64,000 bases of DNA from Granulicella sp. (GTDB lineage: Bacteria; Acidobacteriota; Terriglobia; Terriglobales; Acidobacteriaceae). Position numbers and translations under genes: made by a program. How positions within the stretch are numbered: position 1 is the first letter of the stretch; each line of letters starts with the position of its first letter. The stretch covers positions 16,593 to 80,592 of the forward strand of contig PKWU01000039.1 in NCBI GenBank assembly GCA_003132145.1, given 5' to 3'. Positions 8,281 to 62,770 of the stretch are shown in pieces. The notes under the pieces are model-generated. The model ran no database searches. It saw only the letters and a list, made by a program, of their open reading frames with translations, and was not told where the DNA came from.

Positions 8281-8342
8281 GATGCGGAGATTCTTCCCCG
8301 TTCCCCTTCGACTTCGCTCAGGGTCAGGGTCAGAATGACAAC
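8281..8342. repeat. Dispersed repeat of the CCTGAGCGAAGTCGAAGGGG family
   Basis: Reverse complement reads TTGTCATTCTGACCCTGACCCTGAGCGAAGTCGAAGGGGAACGGGGAAGAATCT; same core at 22922-22970. Confidence 0.6.
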
Positions 8343-9706
8343 TTACGGATCATCTGGCGCGCCCAGTCCGCTGCATCTGCAAGCACAGGGTCGTCGCCCG
8401 CGGCCCAGGTTTCGAGTTGTGGCAGAAAACGCGCTTCGCCGCTGTTGCCCATGGCGATGGCGACGTTGCGCAGCAGCCGCTTGCGGCCGGTGCGCTCCAG
8501 CGGAGAGCCTTTGAAGCTGCGCCTGAACTGGGGCGCGTCCATCGCGGCCAGCCAGTCCAGCGCAGGATGGATCAGTTCGGGCCGCGGTTGCATTGACTCC
8601 CACCCATTCCGCGCAGGACGTGGGATGGATGGGACACCCGTGCGAAGTGTCTCGCCGGGAGGATTGCCGGGAGCCTCATCAGACGGCTTGCTTTGCTGAT
8701 TGCGAAGCAGCTTGGAGTTCCACGGGCAGACGTCCTGGCAGATGTCGCAGCCGAAGACGTGGCGGCCCATCGGCGCGCGCAGACTAGGGTCGATTGCGCC
8801 CTTCTTCTCAATGGTGAGGTAGGCGATACAGCGCGAGGCATCCATCGTTCGCGAAGCATTGGGGGATTTCGAGCCAAGCAGCGCGCCGGTGGGACAGGCA
8901 TCGATGCAGCGAGTACAAGTTCCGCAACTGTCGTTAGATAATAGTGAAAATGAATGTATTACTGTAAGTTCATCGGGAGTTGATGCGGCGCGCGCACCGC
9001 CCACTTCCCTCGCCTGTTCCTTTTCGGCTTCGGTCAGCTCCACCGGAAGGTCTGTGACGACGACGGCGAGCAGGAGCCATGAGCCGAGCTGCTGGTTGAT
9101 GAGGCAGGTGTTCTTGCCGATCCAGCCGACGCCAGCCTCGGCGGCCAGAGTGCGCTCGACGAGCGGGCCGGTGTCTACATAGCAGCGGGTGGTGCAGGCG
9201 GCGCGCGCGAGCAGTCCCGCCTCGATCGCGCGCAGACGGGCGAGCAGCTCGTTGTGGTAGTCGGTTGGGGCCGAGGTTCCGTCGTTGAGCGTGCGGCCGC
9301 TCCATGCGTAGCGGGCGATCCAGCCCGATCCCGGGGGCGCGGGATCAATCGTGAGTGGAGTTGCGGCGCCCGGCGACTGGGCCAACTGATTCTGGCTACG
9401 CACAGACGGCGCGGCAAAGTTGTAATTCAGCGCGCAGACAATGGCCGAGCGCGCCCACGGCATTACCGCGCGCAGATTGCCGCGGATGAGGGTTCCCGAC
9501 TCGTCGCGGCGCTTGAGATAGTCCATCTCGCCGGCGTGGCCCGCGTCGATCCACGCGGAGAATCGCGCCGCCTCCTGCGTGGCGGCTGGGTCGTCCGACC
9601 CGCGGATCTCGGCGACACCACAGACGTCGAAGCCCGCGGCGCGCGAGGATTCATCGAGCCAGAGGCGCAGCTCCGTGTTCCATCGGGTTGATCTATTTGC
9701 GGTCAT
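8330..9706 (-). CDS. queG: Epoxyqueuosine reductase QueG
   Basis: CGTCTRCIDACPTGAL and CDICQDVCPWNSKL 4Fe-4S motifs; likely start MTANRSTRWNTE. Confidence 0.88.
   Translation of the reverse strand: MTANRSTRWNTELRLWLDESSRAAGFDVCGVAEIRGSDDPAATQEAARFSAWIDAGHAGEMDYLKRRDESGTLIRGNLRAVMPWARSAIVCALNYNFAAPSVRSQNQLAQSPGAATPLTIDPAPPGSGWIARYAWSGRTLNDGTSAPTDYHNELLARLRAIEAGLLARAACTTRCYVDTGPLVERTLAAEAGVGWIGKNTCLINQQLGSWLLLAVVVTDLPVELTEAEKEQAREVGGARAASTPDELTVIHSFSLLSNDSCGTCTRCIDACPTGALLGSKSPNASRTMDASRCIAYLTIEKKGAIDPSLRAPMGRHVFGCDICQDVCPWNSKLLRNQQSKPSDEAPGNPPGETLRTGVPSIPRPARNGWESMQPRPELIHPALDWLAAMDAPQFRRSFKGSPLERTGRKRLLRNVAIAMGNSGEARFLPQLETWAAGDDPVLADAADWARQMIRKLSF
8595..8640 (-). repeat. Palindromic element copy inside queG (GGGTGTCCCATCCATCCC...GGAATGGGTGGGAG)
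   Basis: Sequence similarity to copies at 56588-56669 and 57330-57370; in-frame in queG (TGVPSIPRPARNGWES). Confidence 0.65.
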
Positions 9707-9788
9707 CGGTCTTTGCGGCGTGGACTTCCCTTCCTTGCGGCGCCGCCCATGCGCTGGTTCAAGGGTAAATCGCCTACAATCGAAGGAG

Positions 9789-10535
9789 ATGCTATCTTCC
9801 TCTTCTTCCCCCTCAAAAAACATCCATTCAGCGACTGCGAACGGGGCTAATCGTGCGAACGATGCGAATCGTGCGAAAGACGACGCGCAGTGGCCGGAGA
9901 ACGCCGCGCAGCGCATTGATGCAGTTCTATTCGACTACGGCCAGGTGCTCTCCGGCCCGCCCGATGCGGCGGCGTGGGCCACGCTGCGCGCGGTCAGCGG
10001 GTTGGACGAGGAGCGGCTGCACGCGGCCTACTGGAACTTTCGCCACGACTACGACCGTTGCGCGCTGACCGGCAGGACCTATTGGGATGCGGTCGCCGGC
10101 CACGCGGGAGTTCGCTTCGACCCGGTGCAGATGGATGAGCTGATGGCGGCGGATATCGACCTGTGGACCCAGCTCAACCAGCCCATGGTGGAGTGGGCCG
10201 GGCGGTTGCAGCGCGCGGGGGTGCGGACAGGGATTCTGTCGAACATTGGCGACGCGATCGGCGAGGGAGTGGTGGCGCGGCTGCCCTGGCTGGCAGGCTT
10301 CGACCACTGCGTCTGGTCGCATACGATGCGAACGGCAAAACCCGATCCGGCGATCTACCTGAAGACGGCAGGAGCGTTGAAGACAGCAGTGGACAGGATT
10401 CTGTTTATCGACGACCGCGCAGAGAATGTTGCCGCCGCCGCGAAGCTCGCAATGCAGGCCGTGCGTTACACCACGCACGCGGAGTTCGAGCGCGAGATGC
10501 GCGGGCGGGGACTGGGCTGGCTGCTGGACGCCTGA
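9789..10535 (+). CDS. HAD-superfamily hydrolase
   Basis: AVLFDYGQVL motif I, ILSNIGD, KPDPAIYL, LFIDDRAENVAAA. Confidence 0.82.
   Translation: MLSSSSSPSKNIHSATANGANRANDANRAKDDAQWPENAAQRIDAVLFDYGQVLSGPPDAAAWATLRAVSGLDEERLHAAYWNFRHDYDRCALTGRTYWDAVAGHAGVRFDPVQMDELMAADIDLWTQLNQPMVEWAGRLQRAGVRTGILSNIGDAIGEGVVARLPWLAGFDHCVWSHTMRTAKPDPAIYLKTAGALKTAVDRILFIDDRAENVAAAAKLAMQAVRYTTHAEFEREMRGRGLGWLLDA
9846..9881. repeat. 9-bp tandem repeat GCTAATCGT-GCGAACGAT-GCGAATCGT-GCGAAAGAC
   Basis: Encodes ANRANDANRAKD at N-terminus of HAD hydrolase. Confidence 0.65.
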
Positions 10536-22887: not shown

Positions 22888-23014
22888 CCGGCATTTTCGG
22901 AATTGATATAGACCAATTTTGTTTGTCATTCCGTACCCTGAGCGAAGTCGAAGGGGAAGGAATCTGCTTTTGCTTGCTCCACAATGCTCTGCACCATTAC
23001 CGAAAATGCTCTAA
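22888..23014. mobile_element. MITE-like element related to 62611-62770
   Basis: GGCATTTTCGGAATTGATATAG ... TTGTCATTCCG ... GGAATCTGCTTTTGCT ... CTCCACAATGCTCTGCACCATTACCGAAAATGCTCTAA; imperfect terminal inverted repeats. Confidence 0.55.
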
Positions 23015-33595: not shown

Positions 33596-34786
33596 ATGAA
33601 GCGACCGAACGATGCACAGGCGACCGGCGAGGTGGACGATCTGCTGGCCTCCGTTGGCCTGGGCCACGGACGGCGCAAGACGCTCGCCGGCTCCTGGCAG
33701 AATGGGGAGCGGCTGGCGAAGACTACGCGTGCCCGCCAAAATGCGCAGTCTGGACCTGCCGCGGCGCACAGGGGCGAGGGAACGCGGAGCGACAAGGCGG
33801 CGAAGCGAGTCGAACCGGTTCGCGCGCCGGGCTGGCTGCGCTACGCCTGGCTGCGCCACGGTTTCAGCACGCGCGCCACGGGTGTCTCCTCCATCTACGG
33901 TTCGGGTGCAGGCGTTGGCTCGCTCAACCTGGGTTGGACCCAGCAGGACGACCCGGCCAATGTGGCCGAGAACCGTCGCCGATTTATGGCCGCGGTCTTC
34001 AGCCAGCCAATAAACTCTGGCACCCCATCCATTTCCGGGCCATCTGATCCCTGTTCCCTGTTGCCTGATCCCTCTCTCGTGACCCTGCGCCAGTTCCACT
34101 CAGGAATGTTGCGCACCGTAGAGCGCGAAGACCTCGCCCAGCCCGCCCGCCTCCAGACCGCCGACGGGCGCGCCGTACTGCGTGCAGACGGGATGATGAC
34201 CGACGTACCCGGCGTCTTTCTCGGCATTCAGACCGCCGACTGCGTCCCGGTGCTGGTGGCCGACGTGCGCCGGCGCGCTGTGGCGGCCTTCCATGCGGGC
34301 TGGCGCGGCACGCTGGCCCGCATCGTCGAGCGCGGCATCGGCGCCATGCGCCTGCGCTACGGCTCGCGCCCCGAGGACCTGGTGGCCGCCATCGGCCCCT
34401 CCATCGGCCCCTGCTGCTACGCGGTCGGCGAAGAGGTGCGCTTCCAGTTCGAGTCTCAATTTGCCTACGCGCCCGATCTCTTCAGCGAGGTCTTCGACTC
34501 CGACCCCGTGCGCGACAAGTACCCGCTCCTCTTCCTCACCGCGCGCGCGCCGGGCCACAGCAACATCGGCCCACAGATCCATCTCGACCTGTGGCAGGCG
34601 AACCGCCGCCAGTTGCTCGACGCAGGCGTCCCCGCCAGCCGCATCACCGTCGTCGGCGAATGCACCGCCTGCGCCGGCCTGGGGACCGCCGCCGGAAGAA
34701 AGTACTTCTCCCACCGCGCCGAAAGCGGCTTCACCGGCCGAATGATGGCCGTCATCGGCGTGGCAGAGGCAGCAAGCAATAAATAA
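33596..34786 (+). CDS. pgeF: PgeF/YfiH-family (laccase-domain) polyphenol oxidase / purine nucleoside phosphorylase
   Basis: LGIQTADCVPVLVADVRRRAVAAFHAGWRGTLARIV...IGPSIGPCCYAVGEEV; N-terminal ~70 aa uncertain. Confidence 0.82.
   Translation: MKRPNDAQATGEVDDLLASVGLGHGRRKTLAGSWQNGERLAKTTRARQNAQSGPAAAHRGEGTRSDKAAKRVEPVRAPGWLRYAWLRHGFSTRATGVSSIYGSGAGVGSLNLGWTQQDDPANVAENRRRFMAAVFSQPINSGTPSISGPSDPCSLLPDPSLVTLRQFHSGMLRTVEREDLAQPARLQTADGRAVLRADGMMTDVPGVFLGIQTADCVPVLVADVRRRAVAAFHAGWRGTLARIVERGIGAMRLRYGSRPEDLVAAIGPSIGPCCYAVGEEVRFQFESQFAYAPDLFSEVFDSDPVRDKYPLLFLTARAPGHSNIGPQIHLDLWQANRRQLLDAGVPASRITVVGECTACAGLGTAAGRKYFSHRAESGFTGRMMAVIGVAEAASNK
34045..34073. repeat. Heptameric tandem repeat TGATCCC-TGTTCCC-TGTTGCC-TGATCCC inside pgeF
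   Basis: 7-bp period read directly. Confidence 0.75.
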
Positions 34787-46987: not shown

Positions 46988-47422
46988 TTACGCGCTCTCG
47001 CCCTTGGCCGAGGCCAGCTTTTCTTCTGCCTGGCGTGTCATGGCGTTGGCGTAGTCGTACTTCGCGGCGTCGTCGCCTGCCTCCTGCCACATCTTCTCGC
47101 CCAGCGCCAGTTCCTGTTGGGCTTCGGCTGTGTCGATCTCGCTGGGAAGCACCGCCGTCTCGGCCAGAATCGTCACCCGCTCGGGAAGCACCTCGACGAA
47201 TCCCCACGCGACGAAGAACTTCTGGTCGCCCGAGGTGCCGCCGTGCAGCCGCACCTCGCCCGCGCCTAGCTCCGCCAGCAGCGGCGCAGCGCCGTACAGC
47301 GCCTCCAGATAGCCGGAGCTCGACGGCAGCTCCACCGACTCCGCCGTGGCGTCCAGCAGCAGCCGGTCCGGGCTCACCAGCCGTACCGCCAACAACCCCG
47401 AATTTGCAACCGCCTCAGCCAT
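46988..47422 (-). CDS. atpC: F1Fo ATP synthase subunit epsilon
   Basis: LAVRLVSPDRLLLDATAESVELPSSSGYLEALYGAAPLLAELGAGEV; downstream of atpD. Confidence 0.88.
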   Translation of the reverse strand: MAEAVANSGLLAVRLVSPDRLLLDATAESVELPSSSGYLEALYGAAPLLAELGAGEVRLHGGTSGDQKFFVAWGFVEVLPERVTILAETAVLPSEIDTAEAQQELALGEKMWQEAGDDAAKYDYANAMTRQAEEKLASAKGESA

Positions 47423-47431
47423 CTCGTCCTT

Positions 47432-47465
47432 CAACTGACAACCTGCAACTGACAACCTGCAACTG
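47432..47465. repeat. Heptameric tandem repeat CAACTGA-CAACCTG-CAACTGA-CAACCTG-CAACTG
   Basis: 7-bp period read directly; between atpD and atpC. Confidence 0.8.
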
Positions 47466-47467
47466 TA

Positions 47468-48943
<1,476 letters not shown>

Positions 48944-53870: not shown

Positions 53871-53935
53871 CCCCGCCCCCATACTTGCAACCACACCTTC
53901 GGGCCGTTTGCCCGCATCTCTCCGCTGGCTGCTTA

Positions 53936-53970
53936 CAACTCACAACCTGCAACGCACAACCTGCAACCGC
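53936..53970. repeat. Heptameric tandem repeat CAACTCA-CAACCTG-CAACGCA-CAACCTG-CAACCGC
   Basis: 7-bp period; abuts hflX stop codon. Confidence 0.8.
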
Positions 53971-56000: not shown

Positions 56001-56355
56001 GATTGCCGATCTCCTTGCGGTGGTTTCTTAGGTAGTTTCTTAGGTGGTCTCTCTTGAAAAAAGTAAAGTAAAGGAACGCAGCGCTCTATCGCTTCTCTCC
56101 GAGTTCAGTCCCCACAACGGACATCCCACCAAATGCATCTTCCAAGAAATTCAGAATACAGGCCTTAAGCACGATTATCAACTCCACCAGCCCACTCCTC
56201 CGCGCAAGCAATATACATTCAAGCAGTTGCGCCACGCGAAAATCCCATCCCTCACGTTCTTTTCTTGGTTAGACGCATTGCAGATGCAATGGATTCAGCC
56301 GTCCTGCGTTGTACCATGGCAATCAGTGCCCACCCTCAATCCGCAACCCGTCCCC

Positions 56356-57714
56356 ATGCTCGACTTCAGCCGCCAGTACGCCCCGCTACGGCAGGAGGTT
56401 CTCTCCGCCCTCACCGCCGTCTGCGACTCGCAGCACTTTATCCTCGGCCCCCAGGTCGCCGCATTCGAGAAGGCCGCAGCCGCGGCCTGTGCCGCTCGCC
56501 ACGCCATCGGCTGCGCCAGCGGCACAGACGCCCTCTGGCTCGCGCTCGCCGCCTGCGGCATCGGCGACAGTACTGCCAGCACTCGACTGGGTGCCCCATC
56601 CATCGCGGCGACCGGGGTCCCCGGCGAGCGGACTTTGCTCGCTGGGGTGACAGAGCTATGGGTGGGTTCCGACGCCGTCGTCACCACCCCCTTCAGCTTC
56701 TTCGCCACGGCCAGCTCCATCCTGCGCGCCGGAGCGCGTCCCCTCTTCGCAGACATCGACCCCCGCACCTTCAACCTCTCGCCGAACTCGGTCGCCGAAG
56801 TTCTCGCCAGCCCAGCAGGCAAGAACGTCAAAGCCGTCCTCCCCGTCCATCTCTACGGCCAGTGCGCCGATTGGGATGCCTTCGCCGCTCTCCAGCGCGA
56901 CCACCCCGGCCTGCTCCTCATCGAAGACGCGGCCCAGGCCTTCGGAGCGTCGTGGACTACGCCCGGCCAGCCAGCAGGCCGTCCCGCTGGCTCTCTCGGC
57001 GACGCCGCAGCCTTCAGCTTCTACCCCACAAAAAATCTCGCCGCCATGGGAGACGCGGGCCTCGTCACCACCTCCAGCACCGTGATCGACCGCCGCGCCC
57101 GCTCTCTGCGCGCCCACGGAATGACTCGCCGCTACTTCCACGACGAGGTCGGCTGCAACTCCCGCATGGACGACCTGCAGGCCGCCGTCCTCAACGTCAA
57201 GCTCCGCCACATCGACGAGTGGAACCAGCAGCGCCGCACCCGCGCCGCCCGCTACGACCAGCTCTTCCGCGAAGCCAACCTCGCCGTCGAATGGTCCCCC
57301 CCCGAAGCGCTTCACTCAAACAAAGAGTCGGGTGCCCCATCCATCGCAGCAACATCGCGATGGGTGGGATCAGCAGCCACAATCCCATCCGCAGTCACAC
57401 CCTCCACCAAAGACGGCGTCGTTCTCCCCTACACCGACCCGCGCGCCACGCCGGTCTTCCACCAATACGTCATCCGCGCCCCGCGCCGCGACGCTCTGCG
57501 TGCCCGCCTCACCGCGCAGCAGATCGGCAGCGAGATCTACTACCCGGTCCCCATCCACCTACAGGCCGCGCTGCGCGACCTCGGCCACAAGCCGGGAGAC
57601 TTCCCCCAAGCCGAGCGCGCCGCTGCCGAAGTCCTCGCCCTTCCCCTCTACCCCGAACTGCGCGACGACGAGCAGCAAACCGTAGTCGCCGCCATCCGCA
57701 CCTTCTACGCCTGA
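56356..57714 (+). CDS. DegT/DnrJ/EryC1/StrS family PLP-dependent aminotransferase (carries two repeat insertions)
   Basis: MLDFSRQYAPLRQEVLSAL...CASGTDALWLALAACGIGD...AVVTTPFSFFATASSIL...LLIEDAAQAFGA...DAAAFSFYPTKNLAAMGDAGL. Confidence 0.88.
   Translation: MLDFSRQYAPLRQEVLSALTAVCDSQHFILGPQVAAFEKAAAAACAARHAIGCASGTDALWLALAACGIGDSTASTRLGAPSIAATGVPGERTLLAGVTELWVGSDAVVTTPFSFFATASSILRAGARPLFADIDPRTFNLSPNSVAEVLASPAGKNVKAVLPVHLYGQCADWDAFAALQRDHPGLLLIEDAAQAFGASWTTPGQPAGRPAGSLGDAAAFSFYPTKNLAAMGDAGLVTTSSTVIDRRARSLRAHGMTRRYFHDEVGCNSRMDDLQAAVLNVKLRHIDEWNQQRRTRAARYDQLFREANLAVEWSPPEALHSNKESGAPSIAATSRWVGSAATIPSAVTPSTKDGVVLPYTDPRATPVFHQYVIRAPRRDALRARLTAQQIGSEIYYPVPIHLQAALRDLGHKPGDFPQAERAAAEVLALPLYPELRDDEQQTVVAAIRTFYA
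56588..56669 (+). repeat. Palindromic element copy with nested CCCCGGCGAGC...GCTCGCTGGGG hairpin, inside degT
   Basis: GGGTGCCCCATCCATCGCGGCGACCGGGGTCCCCGGCGAGCGGACTTTGCTCGCTGGGGTGACAGAGCTATGGGTGGG. Confidence 0.75.
57330..57370 (+). repeat. Palindromic element copy inside degT
   Basis: GGGTGCCCCATCCATCGCAGCAACATCGCGATGGGTGGGA. Confidence 0.75.
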
Positions 57715-62610: not shown

Positions 62611-62770
62611 CTAGAGCATTTTCACTATTGCTATAGAGAGACAAGAATTGTCATTCCGCAGCGCATCCGCGGTCCCCGGCGAGCGATCTTTGCTCGCTGG
62701 GGTGGAGCAGCGGAGGAATCTGCTTTTGCTCGCACTGTGAGACTCCACACCATTACTGAAAACGCTCTAA
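62611..62770. mobile_element. MITE-like element, ~160 bp
   Basis: CTAGAGCATTTTCACTATTG ... CATTACTGAAAACGCTCTAA near-matching terminal inverted repeats; internal GGTCCCCGGCGAGC-GATCTTT-GCTCGCTGGGGT hairpin. Confidence 0.6.

Follow-up and report, generated by a model that had tools for sequence, protein, structure and literature searches.

A REP-family palindrome lies within genes of a Granulicella sp. genome, mostly in one preferred reading frame

The window analysed here, a stretch of 64,000 nt from a Granulicella sp. genome, carries copies of one short palindrome inside queG and inside a degT-family gene, together with a possible partial copy in pgeF. The features on which the analysis is based are the following:

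8330..9706, minus strand: queG (tRNA epoxyqueuosine reductase), host gene; TIGR00276, 252.8 bits (cut-off 200), and codon-model call
8599..8639, minus strand: REP copy in queG, 41 nt (42 with the 3' A at 8598)
34018..34038, plus strand: candidate relic of the 5' half in pgeF, reading GTPSISG in the same frame and strand; partial match
56326..57714, plus strand: DegT/DnrJ/EryC1-family aminotransferase gene with two copies; PF01041, 329 bits in three stretches, and gene call
56589..56666, plus strand: REP copy 1 in degT, 78 nt, frame GAPSI, its loop carrying a second palindrome
56612..56656 (right end approximate), plus strand: nested palindrome of a second family, CGGGGTCCCCGGCGAGC..GCTCGCTGGGGTG, from sequence and family scan
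57330..57368, plus strand: REP copy 2 in degT, 39 nt, frame GAPSIAATSRWVG

The queG open frame reaches an ATG at 9916 (ORF 8330..9916, minus strand) and reads ...LRTGVPSIPRPARNGWESMQ..., with a product that contains the QueG_DUF1730 and Fer4_16 domains. A previous sequence-only reading had described a palindromic element lying in frame in this gene, and both the sequence and the translation are as it described them: the copy is read GGT.GTC.CCA, giving G-V-P-S-I. Its stem is partly decayed and the DNA hairpin is weak (z = -1.1), and an Rfam search of window positions 8300-9000 returned no match. The comparison with QueG homologues, which the same reading had proposed, revealed an insertion in the linker behind the Fe-S domain. 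The insert is missing from 27 of 29 congeneric orthologues, which rules out a conserved QueG segment; in those 27 the Fe-S domain (CDICQDVCPWN) is followed by a short linker and then by the C-terminal part, one protein being truncated there. At that linker the QueG of the relative G021 has a GAPS..GWDSM remnant of the element, in a copy that has lost 12 nt in length but keeps the frame, and the QueG of G016 has a different insert.

Both copies in degT translate as GAPSIAAT, in agreement with the earlier description. The second palindrome family, nested in the loop of copy 1, occurs at 20 further places in the sampled genome. The half copy previously reported in pgeF, a gene identified by PF02578 (217 bits), does show the described peptide (GTPSISGP, at 34019, plus strand) and frame; however, it is a partial match that is absent from the profile matches above the decoy-derived threshold, and it is therefore regarded as a possible relic of the element and not as a proven copy.

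The segment in queG is a member of a family of imperfect palindromes dispersed in the genome, of the form YGGGTGCCCCATCCAT..loop..ATGGGTGGGA. Its consensus is Y-GGGTGCCCCATCCAT-variable stem-loop-ATGGGTGGG-A/T, with a length of 37-43 nt and a foot of YGGGTGC in essentially all copies. Searching the whole genome for GTGYCCCATCCATC with at most one mismatch gave 101 matches, against 1 for the reversed-pattern control, and searching the window for GGTGTCCCATCCATC with at most two mismatches gave 5 matches against 0.13 expected, two of which (18713 and 33881) are probably fortuitous. The inner stem covaries in a set of 129 distinct, complete copies taken from several genomes, with 97% of cells paired in comparison with 78% when shuffled, and compensatory changes were found at stem pairs 12, 14, 16, 17 and 18 (pair 14 occurs as A-T, T-A or G-C, pair 16 as C-G, G-C or T-A, and pair 17 as G-C, C-G or A-T). 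The outer stem is nearly invariant across these copies, partly since the search motif demands it. Typical copies form hairpins of 12-14 bp, with z values from -3.1 to -5.9 for three of them.

Contig ends often coincide with copies of the element. The window also holds a perfect 24-nt inverted repeat (TTCCCCTTCGACTTCGCTCAGGGT, at 8301-8324 and 22935-22958), which is probably another dispersed repeat; short tandem arrays of a 14-nt unit like CAACTGACAACCTG, at 47418-47477 and 53922-53967; and a 57-nt direct repeat (AGGAATCTGCTTTTGC..., at 22958-23014 and 62714-62770, 79% identical), possibly belonging to another repeat family.

The palindrome is a REP family, because its stem covaries and its copies flank RAYT genes, both in its own genome and in the relative G003. 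In its own genome the transposase gene is located as follows:

Contig C16 of the focal genome (G000), 109-630: RAYT gene (REP-associated tyrosine transposase); NF047646, 114.6 bits, cut-off 80

This gene is bracketed by inverted copies at 14 (plus) and 639 (minus), and the protein displays the motifs EHVHLL and YIHRNPVQRGL; in G003 the RAYT is likewise bracketed by copies of the same palindrome family. A search of 61 genomes found at least one copy of the element in 31, of which 30 are from the same genus, and the named carriers include Terriglobus, Edaphobacter, Granulicella and a few MAGs under other labels. In the relatives G012 and G003, 81 of 85 copies are intergenic, and location within genes therefore looks like a trait of the focal clade. 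Many copies of G012 form inverted pairs about 100-130 bp apart, and about 70 of its 151 copies lie on contig C6, at about 10-300 kb, in single-orientation runs. As a separate observation, when L231 was compared with L056/L057, a bog_405 contig was 98.9% identical over 5.7 kb, the rest of the two genomes differing by roughly 10-15%; the change point in identity falls near an element copy and may reflect a recent transfer or a binning artefact.

Copy placement was analysed on 1.49 of the 3.17 Mb of the genome, including the window, and genes were called with a home-made three-periodic codon model in which the element was masked during scoring. The sample held 102 copies, 60 of them intergenic, 39 within genes and 3 at gene edges, with densities of 37 copies per Mb in genic and 167 in intergenic DNA (4.5 times higher between genes). 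Most in-gene copies stand alone or in direct tandem, and the host flanks around them are more hydrophilic than the genome average (p = 0.001). Named by their profile family matches, the hosts include recG, ligA, mutS, dnaX, ftsK, AddA/AddB-like nucleases, mnmG, a truA-like gene and ilvB, as well as maf, queG, the degT-family gene and genes for PEP carboxylase and a penicillin amidase. For MutS, LigA, IlvB, MnmG and QueG the profiles match across the insert or on both its sides. Repair genes are frequent hosts, and mutS (L050 12606-15521, minus strand) contains three antisense copies, all in one frame. Frame-breaking insertions were sought among the intergenic copies and only 2 candidates were found. 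Alignments to empty sites in relatives, at 75-90% identity, were ambiguous and no clean empty site fixed the insertion boundaries; two apparently empty sites carry GGGTGC in the same phase, as either target or relic.

The common sense orientation noted by the sequence-only reading holds for the copies in the window, but genome-wide it is just a bias, with 30 sense and 9 antisense in-gene copies. Sense frames are designated S2 (GGT.GCC.CCA, GAPSI), S1 (GTG.CCC.CAT, VPHP) and S0 (GGG.TGC.CCC, GCPI), and antisense frames A0 (..GCA.CCC), A2 (..CAC.CC) and A1 (the third). The frame shared by unrelated genes, which had been proposed from the few copies in the window together with a genome-wide check against random expectation, goes well beyond chance: 27 of the 30 sense copies are in S2, 3 in S1 and none in S0, and 7 of the 9 antisense copies are in A0, 2 in A2 and none in A1. 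Counted per host gene, the sense ratio is 20:3:0 (S2:S1:S0; 23 genes; p = 1.6e-7 against 1/3). With a profile search, a few more copies, diverged in sequence, were recovered in these frames, including the third antisense copy in mutS. The relative G021 contributes 3 S2 and 2 A0 copies, and named contigs, mostly from Acidobacteriaceae, contribute 7 S2, 2 S1 and 2 A0, counts that are not fully independent because close relatives there share some insertions.

Only the 5' entry has a fixed phase. Because the S2 copies measure 37, 39, 41 or 43 nt, their 3' ends exit evenly in the three phases (10:8:9). If insertion were precise and of one length, not all of these hosts could remain open, and therefore selection for open genes acts on the exit; alternatively, only open genes are detected, as broken genes would go uncalled. 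Cysteine is always present in the S0 peptide and never in the S2 peptide, and stops are frequent in A1; S1 is seldom used even though its peptide (VPHPSQSHRDGWD) is hydrophilic and mostly free of stops. Stops were rejected as the cause of the bias, given that S0 is open in all 39 in-gene copies and S1 in 34 of them. Gene-caller bias was also rejected, as the element was masked and the second palindrome family of this genome (CGGGGTCCCCGGCGAGC..), taken as a control, occupies all six frames with its 11 in-gene copies; this speaks both against the caller and against any rule that would hold for inserted palindromes in general.

A further candidate is the codon phase of the insertion target. A YYGG or YYGGG target predicts fractions of about 0.51 for S2, about 0.55 for A0 and about 0.3 for S0. 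Under YYGGG, 52% S2 is expected where 20 of 23 genes were observed (p = 5e-4), and therefore selection must supply the rest; this fit is post hoc, because the target was chosen after the flanks were seen. A GGGTG or YGGGTG target was discarded, as its null predicts S1, the wrong frame. The frame-specific insertion mechanism suggested by the sequence-only reading may play a part: the frame is fixed only at the 5' end, and a YYGG(G)-like target would favour the same frames, albeit with about 50% S2 and not 90%.

After insertion, the peptide drifts, apparently unconstrained. The same inserts are present in orthologues from other assemblies, and those in queG, ligA and others persist in frame where DNA identity is roughly 75-90%. 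Across five in-gene copies that are shared, a small sample, 16 nonsynonymous and 5 synonymous changes were counted (pN/pS 1.14), in comparison with a pN/pS of 0.41 in the rest of queG. With a value of about 1.1 from few sites, no peptide function is therefore indicated, and the inserts are apparently a harmless extra linker peptide, a tolerated filler. The alternative suggestion of the sequence-only reading, selection for a tolerated peptide, agrees with the higher density between genes, the hydrophilic sites and the unused cysteine frame; only toleration is supported, because of this drift.

Neither target phase nor selection alone explains the frame skew, and we consider that it probably arose from both, through insertion by the RAYT at a short target on the 5' side whose codon phase is biased, and through the purging of harmful insertions. 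The RAYT, a Y1/HUH single-strand transposase, presumably mobilises the REP copies, and the element would have spread from intergenic DNA into coding sequence in this Granulicella-like lineage. Insertion would occur beside a short YYGG(G)-like sequence on the 5' side; in GC-rich genes the codon phase of such targets favours S2 and A0. Selection would remove other frames, among them GCPI with its constant cysteine and those that contain stops, so that the entry frame would most likely be set at the 5' end by target phase and selection together. Insertions that break the gene, add a stop or strike structured parts would be purged, leaving stop-free, frame-keeping inserts of some 13-15 residues that lie for the most part in hydrophilic stretches. 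This combination does not account well for the rarity of S1, and the second palindrome family, which shows no frame bias though genes tolerate it, counts against it. In a bolder form, which we hold to be unlikely, the RAYT's 5'-side target recognition would pre-set the frame in GC-rich coding DNA and make this REP a natural one-frame linker inserter; if true, insertion chemistry would predispose a mobile element to harmless translation.

Selection by itself, with phase-random insertion after which only GAPS (sense) or ..DGAP (antisense) reads survive and other peptides are harmful, is a possible but rather doubtful account. It would accommodate the depletion of copies in genes, their location in hydrophilic stretches, the cysteine of S0 and the stops of A1, but not the scarcity of the hydrophilic, mostly stop-free S1 peptide, the tolerance of the 3' half in all three phases and of the second family in six frames, or a pN/pS of about 1 after insertion. 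It is quite improbable that a transposase target fixes the codon phase and selection merely keeps the gene open: YYGG(G) favours exactly both observed frames, S2 in sense and A0 in antisense, with the phase fixed solely at the 5' end, but the predicted fractions for S2 and S0, about 0.5 and 0.3, compare with 0.9 and 0 observed, and GGGTG or YGGGTG targets predict S1. The persistence of in-frame inserts across species could be read as positive retention of a functional GAPSI..WVG/GWD peptide, for example as a linker or interaction motif; the ratio of 16 nonsynonymous to 5 synonymous changes (pN/pS 1.14), the unrelated host genes, the shortened G021 queG copy and the lack of the insert in most congeners make this very improbable. 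We give almost no credence to an artefact by which mis-called ORFs or mis-assembly make intergenic repeats seem genic. Contig ends do fall at copies and the gene caller was home-made, but the masking, the profile matches of many hosts to known families, spanning or flanking the insert, the same inserts in orthologues of other assemblies and the unbiased control family all speak against it.

These results describe palindromic mobile DNA that enters housekeeping proteins at scale, outside Rickettsia and with an identifiable transposase, and a frame preference sharp enough to test. With this element one can ask by what route selfish repeats turn into protein sequence, and whether insertion chemistry or selection determines the frame. 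As a caution, a GAPSI or VPHPS peptide in a protein of Acidobacteriaceae may derive from an inserted mobile element.

Among known systems, the closest likeness is to REP/RAYT (TnpA_REP, REPtrons), which in the available portions of PMC3733652 are short high-copy imperfect palindromes that occur singly or as inverted pairs on either side of a gene for a Y1/HUH transposase. The same portions report intragenic REPs, abundant in repair genes, and a distinct Acidobacteria group of RAYT-like transposases, 'TIRYT'; the element resembles such REPs in being mostly intergenic in relatives and, when in genes, often in those of DNA replication and repair. As expected of a REP, it is an imperfect palindrome of 20-50 nt with a conserved stem and many dispersed copies, and it brackets a RAYT; the location is predominantly extragenic in G012 and G003 (81 of 85), but only 60 of 102 copies are intergenic in the focal genome. 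Its 5' foot is YGGGTGC instead of the tetranucleotide GTAG or CGTC, which makes it a REP with another tag, outside the superfamilies of those names. The focal genome departs from the REPs described in those portions by having about 40% of copies in genes and a strong bias to one entry frame, a kind of bias of which the available portions of PMC3733652, PMC3767692 and PMC10969869 make no mention. The inverted pairs of G012 resemble REPINs (PMC3116915), from which the mostly single or direct tandem in-gene copies of the focal genome differ. Finally, the palindromic elements reported in frame in Rickettsia genes (PMC3767692, PMC10969869, in the portions available) share with this one the presence in unrelated housekeeping genes, the same site in orthologues and the tolerated peptides; by their description they are set apart at about 100-150 bp, whereas the element described here is 37-43 bp long, tied to a RAYT and found in Acidobacteriaceae, a family of another phylum.
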